Assembly: GCA_017444825.1 (NCBI GenBank) | Contig: JAFSVU010000013.1 | Span: forward strand, 1-64,000 | Length of the DNA: 64,000 nucleotides | Source: Clostridia bacterium | Lineage (GTDB): Bacteria > Bacillota > Clostridia > UBA1212 | Direction of reading: 5' to 3' | Shown: in pieces, positions 26,002 to 63,229 of the stretch | How the letters are laid out: every line of letters begins with the position of its first letter | Numbering within the stretch: the stretch's first letter is position 1 | Made by a program: the position numbers and the translations under genes | Notes under the pieces: generated by a model | What the model was told of the DNA's origin: nothing | Seen by the model: the letters and a program-made list of their open reading frames with translations, nothing else | Databases searched by the model: none

Positions 26002-26032
26002 TTAATATTGTAAACCTTATATAAATAACATG

Positions 26033-26076
26033 TGCGGCACCGGGGCCTTGATGGTTTCGGTGCCGCATTGGTTTTT
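26033..26076 (+). terminator. Intrinsic terminator of the ftsZ operon
   Basis: TGCGGCACCG (26033-26042) pairs with CGGTGCCGCA (26058-26067), followed by TTGGTTTTT. A second strong hairpin, CGCCGGGCA (26111-26119) with TGCCCGGCG (26127-26135), follows and may insulate ftsZ from the region to its right on both strands. Confidence 0.8.
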
Positions 26077-26162
26077 CATATATATTTTGTGAATTATATT
26101 TTAAAAGACGCGCCGGGCATTGTTTTTGCCCGGCGAAATGCACGAAAGAGAGCTTTTATATT

Positions 26163-26380
26163 ACATAATAAGAGTTATGTTTACCACTTCTTTTGTCCAA
26201 GATACAACGATATTACCATTATTTTGTAAAAAATGTCAATAGGTTTTTAGGCTCTAATGCCATTTTTGTCCTATTTTTATATTAACTATTGACGCTGATT
26301 CCAGAGGACAGGTGCGATTATTTTTGGATTCCAAACAATTTGTGAGTTCTGCGGAGTATCTCACATAACTCTTATTATGT
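26163..26380. promoter_or_regulatory. Candidate invertible promoter flanked by 18-bp inverted repeats
   Basis: ACATAATAAGAGTTATGT (26163-26180) is the exact reverse complement of ACATAACTCTTATTATGT (26363-26380), and the repeats start 200 bp apart. Each is itself a 6-bp palindrome arm pair (ACATAA and TTATGT) around a 6-bp spacer, and the spacers are in opposite orientation, as tyrosine-recombinase inversion sites require. The only good promoter inside reads leftward: TTGACA (26239-26234 on the minus strand), 18 bp, TAATAT. Inversion would turn it toward the prepilin-like genes. No recombinase gene is in the window. Confidence 0.6.
26210..26239 (-). promoter_or_regulatory. Leftward promoter within the inverted-repeat segment
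   Basis: On the minus strand: perfect TTGACA at 26239-26234, an 18-bp spacer and TAATAT (4 of 6 matches to TATAAT). In the present orientation it points to the hairpins at 26135-26033 and to no gene. A TTGACG on the plus strand at 26289 has no usable -10 box. Confidence 0.5.
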
Positions 26381-26472
26381 TTACAGACAAAAAAACGGAA
26401 CAAAACATGATGAACTGCATTGGTTATAGTGTTTTAAATCAGATAACAATCTGTGGAAAAGGAGTACAAGTA

Positions 26473-28464
26473 ATGAAAACGAGAAACAAAAAAGCGTTTA
26501 CTGTCGTCGAACTCGTGATAGTAATTGCTATTATTGCTATCCTGGCGGCAATACTTATCCCGACATTCGCAAGTCTTGTTAAAAAGGCGAACGTTTCGGC
26601 GGATGAACAACTTATTCGGAATCTTAACACCGCGCTTGCCTCAAGCCGTGCTGAGCACAATAACAAACCTCATTCAAATATGTTTGAAGCACTTGAAGCT
26701 GCAGAAAAGTTTGGCTATACAGTTGGGAAGATCAATGCATCCCAAACCGATAACGAGATTCTTTGGGATCAAAAAAATGACGTGTTCTGCTATCTTGATG
26801 GTGATACTGTTAGATACTTGCCAAACAGTGTTGTCGAAAACGAAAAGTTATCCAAAGATGACTACAGGCTTTGGAAAATCTACAACGATTCCGACATAGA
26901 TCCTACAAATGATACGCAAACGTACTCGATTTACTGGAACAGATCAGATACCCCTGCTTCATCTAATATTTCAGTTGGATTTGATGCAGGAAGATCAGAC
27001 AAAATTATGCTGCTTAATTATGTTAATACCACGGGTACTCCCAAAAAAGAAGTGATTATCCGTACTAATAATGGGTCTTTGACTATTGACGCCGAAGATG
27101 ATACGGTAAGGCACTATGGCTCATTAGAGGATTTGACTATCCAATCTGTTGCAATAAAGAGCTATCACGAGTATGGAAATGTGGTTTTTGTTGCAATCAA
27201 AGCAGGCCATATCTCATTTGAATCAGGTTCATCTGTCAAAGCATTGCATATTATCGCCAATGATCAGAAGGTGTTTGATAAGATCATTCTATCATACAAA
27301 GACGGGGTTGAACAACCGGACTATTCCCGTGATTATTGTGTGATAGGTGATGAAGGCACGCTAATCTGCACTTTGGTTCTACCGGAAGAAACAAACAATA
27401 TCTTTTTGTTTAAAAACGGTATCTATGAACAAATCAAATTACAACCTACGACTTTGGAAGTTGAACAGAATTCAACATCGTCTGATGCTAAGATTTGGAT
27501 TACCGATGATGAAACAGCAACTACAAAAACAAGAATTGCTTCAGACCAGTTGGCTAATAGATTTGGTAATCGCACATCGGCGTTGGTTGAAGTTGAGGGG
27601 CAGGACAAACCAGTCTTCTTAGATAATGAGAAAAACTTGGATTCTGCACAACAAGCAAAAGTGGTTACAGAAAAACCATCCCTCGAAGAAAAGAAGGAAG
27701 AAGCATTGGCGTCTGTTTATGTACGGGCACAAGTGGATCACATTGATCTTGATAAACTATCTGTGTTGTATAGTCTGCTTGAATATTACAATATCACAAA
27801 CCAAGCGTATCTGGACCAAGCTTACAATTTCAAAGGTTTTACAGATGCTGAATTTGAATTAATGGCTAAATTTATTGAAGCCAAAGATAGTGATGGCAAT
27901 GACATTTTCAGTATAAACAACATTGATATTTCTTCTTTAAGTCCGGAGAATATCGAAAAAGCCCTAAGCTATGTTAAAACCGAATATGGCGAGGAAACAA
28001 GTGCGGCTATTGAGAAAATAATTAATCAAAAAACACCATACTTTGATTGGATGTGTGACTTTGAAGTTTCATTTGACCGTGATATAGAAGAAGGTAGTGT
28101 GGCTTTAGCAGGTCACTATGGTGCTTTTGCTGACAATTATTACAATGGTCAGTGGTTGGGGTTTGGACTGCCTAACATAAAAGCTACTGATGAGCCGGTT
28201 AGATTGTTGAAAACCATGTTTGAAATGTATAATAATCCAGATTTTAATATGCCGTACATTGCAATTTTAGCAATTGTTCAGGAGTTTGGCTGTGGTGTTA
28301 CTAACTTAAGTAATGATAATGTTGGAACAACGATTACAGTTGAGTTATGTATCTATGATTATGATGATCAAGGAAAGCAAATCGATCGTATTGTTTGTGG
28401 TACATACCAGTATACATTAGGTGAGGTTTCACAGGCTAATCTGAATCTTATTAATGGCAATTGA
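26473..28464 (+). CDS. Large prepilin-like surface protein
   Basis: A 663-aa protein with a class III signal. NKKAFTVVELVIVIAII puts the prepilin peptidase site after Ala8 (instead of the usual Gly), with mature Phe1 and Glu5 in place, then a hydrophobic helix to about residue 32. The remainder has no domain I recognise and no repeats, Cys pairs or C-terminal anchor. GGAG lies 8 nt before ATG 26473. The base composition is AT-richer than the flanking ftsZ and transporter genes, suggesting transfer or a distinct selective history. A sister gene follows 88 bp later, and a candidate phase-variable promoter precedes it. A surface pseudopilin/adhesin role is inferred. Confidence 0.75.
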   Translation: MKTRNKKAFTVVELVIVIAIIAILAAILIPTFASLVKKANVSADEQLIRNLNTALASSRAEHNNKPHSNMFEALEAAEKFGYTVGKINASQTDNEILWDQKNDVFCYLDGDTVRYLPNSVVENEKLSKDDYRLWKIYNDSDIDPTNDTQTYSIYWNRSDTPASSNISVGFDAGRSDKIMLLNYVNTTGTPKKEVIIRTNNGSLTIDAEDDTVRHYGSLEDLTIQSVAIKSYHEYGNVVFVAIKAGHISFESGSSVKALHIIANDQKVFDKIILSYKDGVEQPDYSRDYCVIGDEGTLICTLVLPEETNNIFLFKNGIYEQIKLQPTTLEVEQNSTSSDAKIWITDDETATTKTRIASDQLANRFGNRTSALVEVEGQDKPVFLDNEKNLDSAQQAKVVTEKPSLEEKKEEALASVYVRAQVDHIDLDKLSVLYSLLEYYNITNQAYLDQAYNFKGFTDAEFELMAKFIEAKDSDGNDIFSINNIDISSLSPENIEKALSYVKTEYGEETSAAIEKIINQKTPYFDWMCDFEVSFDRDIEEGSVALAGHYGAFADNYYNGQWLGFGLPNIKATDEPVRLLKTMFEMYNNPDFNMPYIAILAIVQEFGCGVTNLSNDNVGTTITVELCIYDYDDQGKQIDRIVCGTYQYTLGEVSQANLNLINGN

Positions 28465-28552: not shown

Positions 28553-31500
28553 ATGAGAAGGTCAAAGAAAGGTTTTTCTATAGTTGAATTAATAATAGTT
28601 ATTGCTGTGATCGCTGTTCTGGCGGCAGTGCTTATACCGGTTTTTTTCTCGATGGTGAAAAATGCCAGGATATCTGCTGACAACACCACGGTAACCAACC
28701 TCAACAAAGCAGTTGCAACTAAGGAGAGTATTGGTTCGTTTCAGGAATTGACATCGGCGATTGAGGATGTTTACGGGCTTGCGTATCTTCAGTCATTGGC
28801 GCCGGTTTCCGCAGTCTACGGGAACCATTTCTGGTTTGATAATTCGCTGAAAAAAGTTATCCTGTCCACAATCGAAGACCTGGAAGACAAGGGCGATGAG
28901 GCGGTTTGGTTTAATTGCCCGAATTCGAATATTGTTGACGGATATACTCTTCTTGATGCCGGTGGAAGCGACCTTGCGGATCTTCTCAGCGGAGTTTCCA
29001 ACATTTGTTCAAAGACCGAACTGAATTCATTGGCGAACAAGGCATTGTCAATGTACAACAACGGTGAAACCTATCTGGAAAACCTGATAGATTATTTAAG
29101 CCATACAGTCATTATTAATTCAAACGGAAGCTTCAGGTTTGAAAACCTTGAGAATGTTTTCAATGTCTATTTTCCGAGCGATTATGTTTCCCTCGGGACA
29201 CAGATACTATATACATACGACATAAATACAAATACGACAAATATTCATAAAACGTCGCTGGGGTATCCGCTCGTAGGTGACGGAATGTACGGTGCAGGTA
29301 TTGAGATCAAAAAGACTATGTACTTCGGCACCAGGACGTTTTTGGTCGAAGAAGACTGCAATATCGTTCTGATCTGCGATGTGGATTCGGTTGAAGACTT
29401 GAAAACTGTTTTTGCTGCGGCTGCGACAAACGCTTATGTTGCATTGGCGAGTGCACCTGAAAAGAGGTATGTTATTGTCGGGGACGTTATTCAGGAAGCT
29501 GAATCAGGCGATGTGGTCGCGGACAAACTGGAATATAGTGTCAGCGAGGACGTTATAAACTATTCCTTCCCCTATACAGAGGCTGTGACTTATCCGATTC
29601 ACGTTGAGAGGAGCTGGCTTACAGGTAAGACCACTTCTGATACGTTTATTGCCATCGAGAATTCAAGAGTGTCGATATTTATTCCGAAGGGCGTGAAGGT
29701 GGATTCGAGCGATCTGACGCTCACGATTACGCCGCTTGAGATCAGTGAGAGCAATTTTGTGGTGACGGGTTTTGCAACTGCCTCAATCGACGTACATGTG
29801 GAAGGTGTGTCAAAAAGCAATCAGGTTCCGCTGATAATAAGCCTCGGTGCAGTACTTCCAAAAGGACTCAACCGCGGAGCAGTAAAGCTTTATCATATAG
29901 AAGACGGGTTGCCGCAACCTATGACCATGGTAAACAGCTTTGCGTCTGAGACGAGACATAACATGCATACTTACGATGCAAATACAGGTGAGGTAACAGT
30001 TGCGTTAAAGTCTTTCTCTGAACTGCTTATGCAGGCGGGTACTGAGAATAAATGGAACGGGGACATTGCTGAAGATTTTGGCGGCGGTGAAGGAACTGAA
30101 GAGAGTCCGTATCTTATCAGCACAGTGGACCAACTGGCTTATCTTGCTCAGGAGGTCAATAAAGGAAAGAACTATTACGGCAAGTATTTTAGACTTGAGG
30201 CAGATCTTGTAATAAACTCCTGGGATCTTACGGAAAAAGATATAGTTGGAATGACATATTCAAAAGCGCAGGAGTATTGTGCAAAGGATTTTAAATCTTC
30301 TGCGACGAATGACCCCGCTTTTGAGCAATACAACAAGGCGTATAAACCGTGGACGCCGATTGGAGACGGCTCTAATGAATTCAGCGGTATTTTTGACGGA
30401 AACAACCATACTGTTTCGGGATTGTATAAACTACATTATACAGACCCAATGGATAAAAACCCGATGGGATTGTTTGGATGGGTCCATGACGCGACTATCA
30501 GGAATCTGATTATTGCGGATTCATTTATATATACGTATGGCGGGACTGTGGGTCTTGTTACGGGTTACGCCAGCGGAAATACAACGATTGAGAACGTTAC
30601 GGTCACAGACAACTTTGTGACCTCGTATAACTATCCACTTGGCGGAATCGTAGGCTACATGTGGGGCTCCGGCGTTGAAACCGGAGACAAGTTAATTCTG
30701 AAAGACGTTACTATAAATAGCTCCAACCTGATTGAGGCTCTGTGGGAAACATATGATTCCCAGGTGGGTGGATTGGTCGGACGCGCTTCTGCAAATACTA
30801 CTGTTATTTTTGAGAATTGCGAGGTCTGGCCCGAGCTTAGTCTGTATAATGATTGCTGCGCGAATTATCAATGGTTTGCATACAGGTACAGCGGTATGCT
30901 CATTGGTTATGTAGCTGCCGGCGACAGAGCGGATTATCTAACCAATAATGTCAACTGCACAAATGTTCTGGTCAAATACGGTGAGTGGACTGACCAATAC
31001 TACTGCGAGCTTAAATCTCTCGGGAAAGGTTCTTATAACGGAGAACATGAGTGGAAATATACCCGCATAGGAAAAGATCAGGTCGTTAGGGATGAACAGG
31101 GCCATGTCACAGGCTGCGATGTTTCGAAAACATGGCACACTTCACATGAATTATACCCTGATGATGAAGATCATTGCGGTACGAATATCACTTTTAACCA
31201 GCTGTTCGGAGGCGGTCAGGGTGTTTACGGCGAAACTCCCGATCAGTTTGAGGCCTTAAAGTCTGCCGCAGGAATGACATCTGGCGTAACAGTTAAGAGA
31301 TATACCATGCCCGTTGGCGAAGAACCGGAAACGCCGGATTACTCAAACAGTTTTGAATTAAAGTTTAAGAACACCGATAAATATCTTTACAGAGTCGGCA
31401 ATGCAAACGATGTGTCTCTCTCCAGCCTTTTTGAAGCTGTGGATGGAACCAACATCGACAGCACACAAATCAATGTGACGTTTGAAAACAAGCAGGGCAC

Positions 31501-34500
31501 CGACGCAACGTACACCCCCAATAATACTACGTGGACCTCCGGCACAATAAGGTTCAGCGGCGCGGGTGTTATCATGGTCGAACTGGTTTATTATGGGCAG
31601 GTTGTTGAAACGCTGAATTTGGAGGTTATTGATGCAGTCAATTTAACCAGCATTGCAAACGTTGAAAATCTGGATGCAGTTTTGTTGAACGACTGCGGCA
31701 TGGGTGAAACAAGTTATACTGTTAAAAATGGTCACACGTTGTACGGAAATGGTTTTACCATTTCAAGTATGAATGTCGGACTTGGTCTCAATGCAGGCTT
31801 AATGAGCGCAGGATATATATCGCTTGATAATGGTAATATAGAGAATACCAATATCGTTTGCGCACTTTATCCAAGAGGCTATTTATACAGCAGCTCAACA
31901 AGCTACGGAGAAGCTGTCCAGGACGATAATAATTTGAATAAGTTACGGTCAGACAAAGACGGAAACGGTAACTTTACTAAAAAGAGGTACAACTATCAAT
32001 ATTCTGCTTTGACAACAACAGGTAAATGTTCAATTTCAAATTGCTATATTGAAGGTGCAAGAAATAATATATTGATTAAGGCAGGAAGTGATGGGACGAC
32101 TATTTATAACACCACACTGGCGTATGGCAGTCTTGCGAATATTCATATTACCGATAACGAAGGCACTATAGTATTTAAGGATCTGACCACGATCCAAAAT
32201 GTTATCAAAACAAATTTGCCTGACTCTGTGCTGCAAGATGGAAACCATAATAGTGACATCGACAAGACTGTTTTCGGACTTGGAATACTGGTTGGAGATA
32301 ATGAATCTTCGAGTTATCCGACGATAAGAATAGAAGGCAACTTCACCCAGTATAACTGGATTAAGGAAGGAACTACTGTTTCCAGCGCAATATCGAATCA
32401 GATAATTAATTCAGTCTTTAATGGAAACAATAGTTTTATTAAGACAATTGACGGTTCCAAATATGTTAATCTTGGCATTGTGTATATGACGACCAAAACG
32501 CCAAGCATCGACGACAATGATTTTATTGATAGAGATTCATATGATTTAGGTAATGTATCTTTATCATTTGGCAGTGGGAAAACATATTCTTTTGTTGGAA
32601 GCGCTGATAGCAGCAGACTAATTGCTCCTGAATATCAATATTCAGCGAATAATGAAGCAGAGAAGCACGTTGATAAAGTTAAGCTGGTATATGTAGGTTC
32701 TAATGATTTTACAGTAAATGAGGAATTCGATATACAGTCATCAAAGCTTATCCCTACCATTAGGGCTGGAATTGATGCGGGCGAAACAGCATTATTGGAT
32801 GTTAAAGACATTATTTCAAAACGCATGGGAAAAACGTATAGCCCGACATCTTATACTGTTAACGGCGAAGCGGTTGACAGTTCATACATAATAAGCTCTG
32901 ATGGATCAGGCTTGTTTGAAATTGAAGCAAGAGGAAATACTTCAGGATATTACGATGAGAACGGTGAGTTCATATCTGACCCTCAAGATTATCGGTTGAC
33001 ATTTAGATTTATTGTTATTTCGAATGCAATTCCTGACCCGGTACTGATATTTAACAGTAATTATGATTCATACAATAACAAGTTTGCAACAAGTACCAGC
33101 AGTGAATGGACAGGAGTATGGAACGTATTAAATGATGTTGAGTTACAATACTATAGTAAATCCAGGGGGGCAGTCTTAACTGTTCCGTTAAGCTACTTCA
33201 TTTCGGGAAGCAACACAAAGGGCTCTGACCATGCTTCATGGGTTGGTACTTATGATGATTGTACTTTAACTTTAACAAGTACTTCGAAAATACATGACGG
33301 TCAAAGCCAATATGGTTACTTCATTATCTCGAATGGAGATTTATATATTACAAATGACAAGAAAGTCAGCACCGGAACTTCAGATAGGAAGGCTACAATA
33401 AAATATGAAATTGCTGATTGCAACATGAAGACAACATCTGCAACCAAATCCCGCACTGTGGAAAGGACAAAGGCAAAAGCTAAATCTGTTTCTACCGGTT
33501 CTAATTATATACTAAGGTTAGATCCGGGATTGGGAAGCATTTCTCAGTATTCTTATGGGCCAAACGCTAAGAATACAATTATTACACTAAAAAATACACC
33601 ATCTTTAGATAATCACGAGTTCTTAGGGTGGTATGATGCGCCTGTCGGTGGAACGAGGAAAGACAGTAATCTATCATATGTAACTACTGCAGGAAACGTT
33701 GTGCTTTTCGCACATTGGCGTGAGCTGATCAACTACACTGTTCTCTTCGATGCTGATGGCGGGTATATGGATTCAAACAGCTATAGTAATTATTCCGGAA
33801 CAGAATGTGATTTACCCGGAGCGTCAAGAGACGGTTACTGGTTAGTAGGCTGGTTTGATGGCGATACCAATAGGGGCAAAGCCGGCGACAACTACACGAT
33901 TCCCGAAAGAAACGTCACATTAACTGCCCATTGGTCTCCTATCTATACAGTCACATATGATATGACAAACGGTGGAACGGTATCGCCTGCAAGTTCAACG
34001 TACGAAGGAACTGCAATTATGCTACCTACTCCAACTCCCGGTTCTCAACCGACATTTGAAGGTTGGTTTACAGCCGCAAGCGGCGGAACAAAAACAGGCA
34101 TAGCAGGTGATAGTTATACCCCGAGTGAAAATGTTACGCTATATGCACAGTGGTCAAATAATATACCAGTTATGTATAACGAAAACGGTGGCTCGTGCGA
34201 TACGAGTAGAGACACATATGACGGTATGACACCAATTACTCTACCCCATGCGACACGTGCCGGATATCAGTTCAATGGTTGGTATACTGCCGCAAGCGGC
34301 GGAACAAAAGTCGGAGATGCAGGTGCCACGTACACTCCCGATAGAGCTATCACCCTTTACGCACGGTGGACTGCATACACGGTAACATACGACGCAAATG
34401 GCGGCTCGGTATCTCCCTCAAGTGCGAGCGGGATGGTAACTTTACCAACGCCGACACGAACAGGCTATACGTTCAATGGCTGGTATACTGCCACAAGCGG

Positions 34501-35530
34501 CGGCACTAAGATAGGTAACGGCGGTGCATCATATACACCAACAGAAGATATTACCTTATATGCTCAGTGGACAGTAAATAGCTATAAAGTAACTATTACA
34601 ACATCTAATAGTTCAACAGCTGTTACAGTTAATGGTACAACTGTTAGTAGTGGTGGTTCAGTTGCATATAATAGTGTAGTTAAAGTTGTTTTATCTTATA
34701 CGCAATCTAATTCATTAACATTCACTATTAAACAAGGCAACACAACTGTAACGCGTTTCAGTAATGAAGCTTGTACATCTACCACAACCTCAATAGCTGC
34801 AGGAACTTATTACTTCAAGATGCCAGCAGGTGATGTTACGATTAATTCTTCGTCAACCGGTAGTTGTCTTGCCCCCGACACCATGATCCTCATGGCTGAC
34901 GGCACCGAGAAGCAGGTTCAGTACGTTATCCCGGGTGACGAACTTCTGGTGTTCAACCATGAAACGGGAGAGATTGAGACTTCATTCGTCCTCTTCAACG
35001 ACACAGAAGAAGAGCAGGAGTTTGAGATCATCAACCTCGATTTCAGTAACGGCAAGCGGGTGAGGGTCATCAGCGAGCACGGGTTCTTTGATCTGGACCT
35101 CATGAAATATGTTTACATTGACGGAGACAACTATGAAGCTTTTGTTGGCCATCGGTTCTACGGAATTGAAGGGGAATACACTCTTGACCGGGCGTTCATC
35201 ACTTACGAGGCGATGGCTGTCTACTCACCTGTAACCTATTCGACCCTCAACTACTTCACTGAGGGTATGCTCTCAATGCCGGGCGGTATAACAGGTCTTT
35301 TCAATATCTTTGATTACGATAACGACCTTAGGTACGATCAGGCGGCAATGAACCGGGATATCGAAACATATGGACTGTTTACGGCTGAGGAGATGGAGGG
35401 CATTGGCGTCACAGAGATTATGTTCAACGCTTACAACGGCAAATATCTCAAGATCGCGCTGGGCAAGGGCATCCTCACAGAGGAACACCTTATGTACATG
35501 ATTGAGCGCTACGGAGGCTTTACGGAGTGA
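28553..35530 (+). CDS. Giant prepilin-like protein with Listeria-Bacteroides repeats and C-terminal Hint domain
   Basis: A 2325-aa protein. Residues 1-30 form a prepilin signal: cleavage after Gly7 of KKGFSIVELIIVIAVI, with Glu5 of the mature form present. A segment near 510-620 (GTEESPYLISTVDQLAYLAQ, FSGIFDGNNHTVSGLY) resembles GLUG/ZmpA-like surface modules. Residues about 1650-2007 hold five Listeria-Bacteroides repeats, each ending in a xxxAxW motif such as ITLYAQW. The last 221 residues are a Hint fold: Cys2105 in GSCLAPDTMILMADG, PGDELLVFN, VISEHGFFD and TYSTLNYFTEGML. The usual His-Asn end is replaced by SMPGG, and about 100 residues follow. I infer secretion, autoprocessing and perhaps covalent attachment. 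Confidence 0.82.
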   Translation: MRRSKKGFSIVELIIVIAVIAVLAAVLIPVFFSMVKNARISADNTTVTNLNKAVATKESIGSFQELTSAIEDVYGLAYLQSLAPVSAVYGNHFWFDNSLKKVILSTIEDLEDKGDEAVWFNCPNSNIVDGYTLLDAGGSDLADLLSGVSNICSKTELNSLANKALSMYNNGETYLENLIDYLSHTVIINSNGSFRFENLENVFNVYFPSDYVSLGTQILYTYDINTNTTNIHKTSLGYPLVGDGMYGAGIEIKKTMYFGTRTFLVEEDCNIVLICDVDSVEDLKTVFAAAATNAYVALASAPEKRYVIVGDVIQEAESGDVVADKLEYSVSEDVINYSFPYTEAVTYPIHVERSWLTGKTTSDTFIAIENSRVSIFIPKGVKVDSSDLTLTITPLEISESNFVVTGFATASIDVHVEGVSKSNQVPLIISLGAVLPKGLNRGAVKLYHIEDGLPQPMTMVNSFASETRHNMHTYDANTGEVTVALKSFSELLMQAGTENKWNGDIAEDFGGGEGTEESPYLISTVDQLAYLAQEVNKGKNYYGKYFRLEADLVINSWDLTEKDIVGMTYSKAQEYCAKDFKSSATNDPAFEQYNKAYKPWTPIGDGSNEFSGIFDGNNHTVSGLYKLHYTDPMDKNPMGLFGWVHDATIRNLIIADSFIYTYGGTVGLVTGYASGNTTIENVTVTDNFVTSYNYPLGGIVGYMWGSGVETGDKLILKDVTINSSNLIEALWETYDSQVGGLVGRASANTTVIFENCEVWPELSLYNDCCANYQWFAYRYSGMLIGYVAAGDRADYLTNNVNCTNVLVKYGEWTDQYYCELKSLGKGSYNGEHEWKYTRIGKDQVVRDEQGHVTGCDVSKTWHTSHELYPDDEDHCGTNITFNQLFGGGQGVYGETPDQFEALKSAAGMTSGVTVKRYTMPVGEEPETPDYSNSFELKFKNTDKYLYRVGNANDVSLSSLFEAVDGTNIDSTQINVTFENKQGTDATYTPNNTTWTSGTIRFSGAGVIMVELVYYGQVVETLNLEVIDAVNLTSIANVENLDAVLLNDCGMGETSYTVKNGHTLYGNGFTISSMNVGLGLNAGLMSAGYISLDNGNIENTNIVCALYPRGYLYSSSTSYGEAVQDDNNLNKLRSDKDGNGNFTKKRYNYQYSALTTTGKCSISNCYIEGARNNILIKAGSDGTTIYNTTLAYGSLANIHITDNEGTIVFKDLTTIQNVIKTNLPDSVLQDGNHNSDIDKTVFGLGILVGDNESSSYPTIRIEGNFTQYNWIKEGTTVSSAISNQIINSVFNGNNSFIKTIDGSKYVNLGIVYMTTKTPSIDDNDFIDRDSYDLGNVSLSFGSGKTYSFVGSADSSRLIAPEYQYSANNEAEKHVDKVKLVYVGSNDFTVNEEFDIQSSKLIPTIRAGIDAGETALLDVKDIISKRMGKTYSPTSYTVNGEAVDSSYIISSDGSGLFEIEARGNTSGYYDENGEFISDPQDYRLTFRFIVISNAIPDPVLIFNSNYDSYNNKFATSTSSEWTGVWNVLNDVELQYYSKSRGAVLTVPLSYFISGSNTKGSDHASWVGTYDDCTLTLTSTSKIHDGQSQYGYFIISNGDLYITNDKKVSTGTSDRKATIKYEIADCNMKTTSATKSRTVERTKAKAKSVSTGSNYILRLDPGLGSISQYSYGPNAKNTIITLKNTPSLDNHEFLGWYDAPVGGTRKDSNLSYVTTAGNVVLFAHWRELINYTVLFDADGGYMDSNSYSNYSGTECDLPGASRDGYWLVGWFDGDTNRGKAGDNYTIPERNVTLTAHWSPIYTVTYDMTNGGTVSPASSTYEGTAIMLPTPTPGSQPTFEGWFTAASGGTKTGIAGDSYTPSENVTLYAQWSNNIPVMYNENGGSCDTSRDTYDGMTPITLPHATRAGYQFNGWYTAASGGTKVGDAGATYTPDRAITLYARWTAYTVTYDANGGSVSPSSASGMVTLPTPTRTGYTFNGWYTATSGGTKIGNGGASYTPTEDITLYAQWTVNSYKVTITTSNSSTAVTVNGTTVSSGGSVAYNSVVKVVLSYTQSNSLTFTIKQGNTTVTRFSNEACTSTTTSIAAGTYYFKMPAGDVTINSSSTGSCLAPDTMILMADGTEKQVQYVIPGDELLVFNHETGEIETSFVLFNDTEEEQEFEIINLDFSNGKRVRVISEHGFFDLDLMKYVYIDGDNYEAFVGHRFYGIEGEYTLDRAFITYEAMAVYSPVTYSTLNYFTEGMLSMPGGITGLFNIFDYDNDLRYDQAAMNRDIETYGLFTAEEMEGIGVTEIMFNAYNGKYLKIALGKGILTEEHLMYMIERYGGFTE
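33505..34575 (+). repeat. Five tandem Listeria-Bacteroides (Flg_new) repeats inside the giant gene
   Basis: Repeated units of about 65-75 codons share (Y)TVTYDxNGG, GYxFNGWYTAASGGTK and ITLYAxW. They begin near 33505, 33740, 33945, 34165 and 34375. Copies 3-5 are the closest to each other at DNA level, so recombination between them could change copy number. Confidence 0.85.
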
Positions 35531-62188: not shown

Positions 62189-63229
62189 ATGCCACTTGAT
62201 CCGGGGATGAGCCCAACCATTGAAAAAGTTATCAACCTTGCGGTCGCGAACCATGCGTCCGACGTGCATTTCAAAGCGAAGCAGGTGCCTGCCATCAGGA
62301 TCAACGGCGAGATCATGCGTCTGAATTTCCCTGTTTTGACGGAAGAAGAGATAGTTGCTTTTACGAACTTTATGTGCCCGCGGCATGACGAGAGAAGTCC
62401 TCTCGAGGCCAGAGACTTTTCCTGGGTACACAACGGGGCCCGCTTCCGTGTGAACGTTTTCCTTGACGGCAACGGCCTCTGCATCTCCATGCGCTACCTC
62501 TACATCCCCACCACCGACTTTGCGACCCTCGGCATTCCCGAAATCTTGAAGAAGATGGCTGAGCGGAAGAGCGGCATGATCCTAATCACAGGGCCAACGG
62601 GCTCCGGCAAGACCACTACGCTTACGTGCCTCATTGACTATATCAACAACACTTATCCCATGCACATCGTGACGCTGGAGGACCCTATCGAGTACGTTCA
62701 CGAGTCGAAGCGCAGTATTATTTCCCAGCGTGAGATAGGCGTTACGGCTTTAAGCTACGAGCACGCCATCGTTGAGGCTCTTCGTGAGGACCCGGACATT
62801 ATTTTCGTGGGCGAGATGAGAGACAGGGACAGTATAAGAGGAGCGCTGAGAGCCGCCGAGACGGGCCATCTGGTCCTTTCGACACTACACACCAAGGGCG
62901 CCGCCAATACCGTCACCAGAGTCGTCGACATTTTCACCGCTGAGGAGCAAAACCAGGTCCGCATGCAGCTTTCGATGTGCCTCCTGGGCGTCGTGTCACA
63001 GCAGCTGGTGCCGAGAGCCGACCATTGCGGCCGTGTCCTTGCCACTGAGGTCATGATGGGAACCATTCCGGTCCAGAACCTCATCCGCCAGCAGAAGATT
63101 CACATGATCAATTCAACGCTGGATCTCTCCAGCAGCGAAGGTATGCATACCATGAAGCACTCGCTGCAGGAGCTGTTGGATATCGGGCTGATAGGGCAGA
63201 AGGAATATGATGCGTATCAGATAGTTTAA
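62189..63229 (+). CDS. pilT: Type IV pilus retraction ATPase PilT
   Basis: A 346-aa hexameric ATPase that powers pilus retraction, hence twitching and DNA import in species that do so. It has Walker A GPTGSGKTTT near residue 135, Asp box TLEDPIEYVHE, Walker B DIIFVGEMRD and His box GHLVLSTLHT. The C-terminal NLIRQQKIHMI matches the PilT AIRNLIRE-type motif, separating it from PilB. GAGGAAA precedes ATG 62189. The expected pilB, pilC and pilD genes are not in the window. It is divergent from the pilin genes. Confidence 0.92.
   Translation: MPLDPGMSPTIEKVINLAVANHASDVHFKAKQVPAIRINGEIMRLNFPVLTEEEIVAFTNFMCPRHDERSPLEARDFSWVHNGARFRVNVFLDGNGLCISMRYLYIPTTDFATLGIPEILKKMAERKSGMILITGPTGSGKTTTLTCLIDYINNTYPMHIVTLEDPIEYVHESKRSIISQREIGVTALSYEHAIVEALREDPDIIFVGEMRDRDSIRGALRAAETGHLVLSTLHTKGAANTVTRVVDIFTAEEQNQVRMQLSMCLLGVVSQQLVPRADHCGRVLATEVMMGTIPVQNLIRQQKIHMINSTLDLSSSEGMHTMKHSLQELLDIGLIGQKEYDAYQIV

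Follow-up and report, generated by a model that had tools for sequence, protein, structure and literature searches.

A putative promoter-inversion switch upstream of two prepilin-like genes in a Clostridia bacterium, one of at least 13 probably operated by a single tyrosine recombinase

The region 26163-26380 of the window (the whole stretch of 64,000 nucleotides that was analysed) can be interpreted, with a probability of about 0.92, as a phase-variation switch in which a promoter segment would be inverted by a tyrosine recombinase. Counting this one, the genome has at least 13 such loci, all of them probably served by a single recombinase acting in trans. The preliminary description had proposed an invertible promoter pointing away from two prepilin-like genes, a proposal now supported by 12 further site pairs, a matching recombinase and both orientations found elsewhere. 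The locus comprises the following features.

26032..26068, plus strand: second terminator-like hairpin, downstream of ftsZ (fold z -4.9)
26111..26135, minus strand: terminator-like hairpin (fold -19.4 kcal/mol, z -3.3) whose T-run is turned toward the leftward transcript of the OFF state
26163..26180, plus strand: left recombination site (IRL), arms ACATAA and TTATGT (common to 13 inverted pairs of the genome) around TAAGAG
26181..26362, no strand: putative 182-bp invertible segment, bounded by the two sites, with paralogous homologous segments in both orientations
26210..26239, minus strand: putative promoter TTGACA-18-(TG)TAATAT, leftward (OFF), from its consensus match
26363..26380, minus strand: right recombination site (IRR), reverse complement of IRL by direct sequence match
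26457..26464, plus strand: ribosome-binding-site-like AAAAGGAG ahead of the ATG at 26473, read from the sequence
26473..28464, plus strand: target gene 1, prepilin-like protein of 663 aa (PF07963, 25.0 bits, above cut-off)
28553..35530, plus strand: target gene 2, prepilin-like protein of 2325 aa (PF07963 prepilin motif)

The sequence ACATAATAAGAGTTATGT occurs at 26163-26180 (+) and 26363-26380 (-) with zero mismatches, the two starts being 200 bp apart, so that a sequence search recovered both exact 18-bp inverted repeats at the positions previously given. Each site carries 6-bp arms, ACATAA and TTATGT, flanking a 6-bp spacer that reads TAAGAG in one and CTCTTA in the other; the palindromic arms and oppositely oriented spacers of the preliminary description are therefore real. 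The window contains no further copy at 3 mismatches or fewer (0.04 expected), and two copies were obtained in 0 of 100 shuffles. Both sites are followed by TTAC in direct orientation.

The strongest promoter between the sites is the TTGACA-18-TAATAT element on the minus strand (26239-26210), with TG preceding its -10 box; the number of consensus promoters in the switch region (3 found, 2.0 expected by chance) is not significant alone. To its left are two terminator-like hairpins, where 0.3 would be expected, and ftsZ, which reads toward the switch. The earlier claim of a sole strong promoter pointing leftward into two hairpins thus stands, as does that of two giant prepilin-like genes downstream, the first at 26473. 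On the sequence, the window switch is OFF in this assembly, its putative promoter pointing left into a terminator hairpin. After inversion, this promoter would occupy approximately 26304-26333 (+), according to mirror coordinates derived from the site positions, and would read into 26473.

A search of the genome (2.45 Mb, 97% complete) found 20 exact ACATAA-N6-TTATGT sites, versus 0 in a backward control, and 29 versus 12 when one arm mismatch was allowed. With 2 arm mismatches, genome matches roughly equal those of the control (115 versus 118), and more degenerate sites could therefore not be counted. Pairing, which demanded exactly matching spacers, yields 13 pairs with sites 82-242 bp apart, plus one site on contig C46 that is cut off by the contig edge. 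An exact-spacer partner exists for all sites with no more than one arm mismatch, except C46:187, C28:399 and C43:22167; given the backward-control counts, the last two, both isolated, are likely chance matches, and the C46 site probably marks a 14th switch interrupted by the assembly. The switches are numbered S1 (window), S2 and S3 (C18), S4 (C19), S5 and S6 (C27), S7 (C29), S8 (C36), S9 and S10 (C42), S11 and S12 (C44) and S13 (C49). As expected of invertons, at all 13 loci, that of the window included, short inverted repeats bound an intergenic segment with a promoter-like site.

The orientation is inverted in all 13 pairs and direct in none. Tyrosine recombinase sites consist of arms used for binding and a spacer within which strands are exchanged, and the pairs conform to this organization: the spacers are reverse-complementary within 13 of 13 pairs, the entire strand-exchange region being identical between partners, and they differ between pairs, with single arms free to carry mismatches. 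Conservation among the sites is restricted to ACATAA(T)N4(A)TTATGT. The spacers of all 14 switches are distinct, but chance alone would give this with a probability of about 0.54, and it does not demonstrate selection for distinctness.

The genome encodes two tyrosine recombinases, one of XerC/D type (C8:77580) and one of 281 aa (G000 contig C8:37796-38641), the gene of the latter lying between thrS and nagA, neighbours named from their translations. The 281-aa protein carries PF00589 and PF02899, and its R-K-H-R-H-Y residues, R139, K163 (or K161), H226, R229, H252 and Y261, are invariant across 10 homologues. The preliminary description had suggested looking elsewhere in the genome for a recombinase with matching sites, and this single gene, for at least 13 switches, answers to it. 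No switch site is found near the gene, adjacency being usual but not obligatory and observed in the relatives. As the gene is not adjacent, we infer from the site and the family that its product acts on the window site.

Enzyme and site co-occur among related genomes. Close homologues are present in 10 of 38, the window genome included, and exact paired sites in 9 of these 10 versus 0 of the 28 without the recombinase (Fisher p = 6e-8); the tenth (G005) has a variant-arm pair (ACATTA/TAATGT) adjoining its recombinase gene. A scan of GTDB representatives returned at least 596 stretches, and in 57 of the best 80 loci, which were those examined, the recombinase gene has a pair immediately 3' of it; most of the others among these 80 reach a contig edge there. 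The relatives from other Clostridia are about 45-63% identical and in almost all cases have a pair of the same site 5-85 bp away, with one recombinase per switch. Where a genome has several switches of this family, it also has several recombinases: in G134, four recombinase genes, each adjoining a pair, accompany four exact pairs, and in G132 each of four exact pairs adjoins one of six recombinase genes. Among the genomes examined, only the window genome combines many switches with one unlinked recombinase gene, and it also ranks highest for strict sites in a 291-genome sample of the class (9; next 8). It is quite likely that this enzyme, whose relatives each serve one neighbouring switch, has in the present lineage become a master recombinase, unlinked to the prepilin promoters (at least 13) that it would invert, with the spacer as an address by which each switch recombines with itself and is kept apart from the others.

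It is unlikely that the switch is invertible but is operated by another enzyme, either the XerC/D-like C8:77580 or one of the three large serine recombinases (open frames of 515-827 aa), although all these genes are present in the genome. XerC/D-like proteins also occur in genomes without paired sites, linkage to these sites is seen only in the 281-aa family, and none of the large serine recombinases was found linked to a site. As a matter of general mechanism, identity over the whole 6-bp spacer suits a tyrosine enzyme better than a serine one, and the usual role of large serine recombinases is to integrate and excise elements.

The action proposed for the 281-aa recombinase can be outlined as follows. 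The enzyme would bind the arms of both sites and exchange strands within the identical 6-bp spacer, thereby inverting the 182-bp segment. As the spacer would be the strand-exchange region, only sites with the same spacer would recombine productively. In the flipped state, the promoter would read through IRR into 26473 and 28553, and in the present state its transcript would run into the hairpin at 26111-26135. Both the activity of the window promoter and the arrival of the target proteins at the surface are presumed. As one distant recombinase probably drives the 13 switches in trans, each pilin operon would be turned ON or OFF independently.

Each of the 13 segments carries a promoter-like site, which is clear in 11. 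By this measure S1, S2, S3, S8, S9, S12 and S13 are OFF, S4, S7, S10 and S11 are ON, and S5 and S6 are ambiguous. Segment orientation was assessed by aligning segments among paralogues that share similar downstream flanks. The segments of S7 and S10 have the same orientation, as do those of S3 and S8, and among these four all the pairs combining an ON and an OFF switch align better when flipped (flipped versus unflipped: S3-S10, 55 versus 26; S7-S8, 44 versus 18; S8-S10, 36 versus 22; S3-S7, 30 versus 17); S11 and S12 are also flipped, more weakly (28 versus 14). These orientations match the states predicted from the promoters (S3 and S8 OFF, S7 and S10 ON). Furthermore, in S3, S7 and S10 the gene-side outer flank ctgaaaatgta is fixed and the inner ends agcttaat and tgtacgatttt are swapped, a combination that reads as a trace of inversion independent of the promoter calls. 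Both orientations are therefore found between paralogues (S3 and S8 versus S7 and S10), and also between species, since cis cassettes that are orthologous and share a TetR target have flipped segments (L150 and L172 versus L168). The opposite arrangement that the preliminary description had proposed to seek in relatives is thus present in paralogous as well as orthologous switches, with fixed flanks.

These traces bear on a reading in which nothing is inverted and the repeats are operators for a dimeric regulator, which would either repress the promoter or form a DNA loop. The sites are near-palindromic, as operators of a dimer would be, and they flank a promoter-like sequence. However, such a regulator needs no identical spacer specific to each pair, yet 13 of 13 pairs have one; it would tolerate direct orientation, yet 0 of 13 pairs are direct; and it explains neither the segments flipped between paralogues and between orthologues nor the co-occurrence of the sites with a tyrosine recombinase gene. 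This makes it very improbable. Terminal repeats of a small non-autonomous (MITE-like) mobile element inserted before several genes are hardly credible, for although one genome does contain, at several loci, short inverted repeats separated by about 80-240 bp, their inner 6 bp vary between loci and match within each, most segments are dissimilar and the spacing ranges from 82 to 242 bp, all the targets are prepilin operons, and the relatives link the sites to a tyrosine recombinase and not to a transposase.

Two further observations concern individual loci of the putative switch family. S13, which has prepilin genes on both sides, was considered as an either/or switch; this was rejected because its right-hand gene is separated from the switch by a terminator hairpin and by another promoter-like site. 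The lone contig-end site (L040:187-204, on G000 contig C46) adjoins a terminator hairpin that resembles the one of S9.

All 13 switches face operons of type IV prepilin-like genes. The target proteins are mostly of 660-2325 aa, both C27 ones being small (134-142 aa). The genome has 25 prepilin-like genes above cut-off, 14 or 15 of which follow a switch. Many target operons are headed by a gene for a small membrane protein of about 150-160 aa, often with a C-terminal C-R-M/L-N-C (members include L033:14498-14977, L037:8635-9114, L035:4101-4553 and L212:9444-9896); no Pfam family was found for the two members scanned. A PilT-type ATPase gene at 62189-63229 indicates that the genome encodes a type IV pilus apparatus, at least in part. 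In the window, the 2325-aa protein contains 5 Flg_new repeats together with a divergent InlB B-repeat, and its C-terminus gives a weak match to Hint, below the Pfam cut-off. Self-cleavage of this product (28553-35530), in which the intein-like match lies C-terminal to the InlB-type repeats, might be conceivable.

Several known systems invite comparison. DNA inversion also changes type IV pilin expression in Moraxella, where Piv, an unrelated enzyme, inverts coding segments behind one promoter (tfpQ-tfpI); here, the predicted inversions concern promoters. In Clostridioides difficile, the master tyrosine recombinase RecV acts on several unlinked promoter switches of 154-230 bp (cwpV, flg and others), and the inverted repeats of these are reported to bear, for the most part, no relation to each other (PMC5903667). 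By its description, RecV resembles the enzyme proposed here as a Clostridia tyrosine recombinase serving several unlinked promoter-region switches of surface and signalling genes; in contrast, the at least 13 switches described here have common arms and all their targets are prepilins. In Bacteroides fragilis, Mpi is an unlinked master enzyme that controls the cell surface through at least 13 invertible regions (PMC5903667), a likeness in both the proposed arrangement and the number. Mpi is, however, a serine recombinase whose best-known targets are polysaccharide loci, and the system proposed here involves a tyrosine recombinase, prepilins and pair-specific 6-bp spacers. If this is correct, it would be a Clostridia counterpart of Mpi, with pilins for capsules and a tyrosine for a serine recombinase. 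One enzyme would then control an independently switchable set of giant pilin genes with 2^13 states or more, which appears to give cells of this uncultured gut-type bacterium a large combinatorial surface repertoire.

A study of gut communities groups Firmicutes_A invertons by inverted-repeat motif (IR groups 125 and 139; PMC11892184). The likeness lies in Clostridia switches sharing an IR motif, and the ACATAA-N6-TTATGT site may already be catalogued among those groups. A literature search on the site sequence returned nothing relevant.

Comparable too are the cis cassettes found in this analysis, for example those of Hungatella effluvii (L180), Monoglobus (L229) and viral contigs (L213-L222), which have the same recombinase family, at about 45-63% identity, and the same 18-bp site. 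They carry a recombinase beside each switch and target LRR/dockerin proteins, collagen-like proteins, CpsB, TetR or SPFH, whereas here one unlinked recombinase probably serves at least 13 prepilin switches. If this is correct, cis and trans control could be compared, as they occur in nature, inside one recombinase family, and the roughly 80 spacers known from nature for so compact an 18-bp site would be useful for tests of how the spacer sets partner choice.

Some members of the family show further variations. The recombinase and paired-site cassette is found on viral-classed IMG/VR contigs (L213, L214, L217-L222 and L226), so that phages or mobile elements may carry it. In Pusillibacter faecalis pMM59_01 (L228:3833-4152), a 47%-identical recombinase precedes an S-layer-homology gene, and the inverted repeat in the same place has a different sequence (26 nt), which suggests that site specificity evolved alongside the enzyme. 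Lastly, the cis cassettes L140, L178 and L182 have three or four site copies with the same spacer, so that more than one inversion, or a deletion, would be possible.
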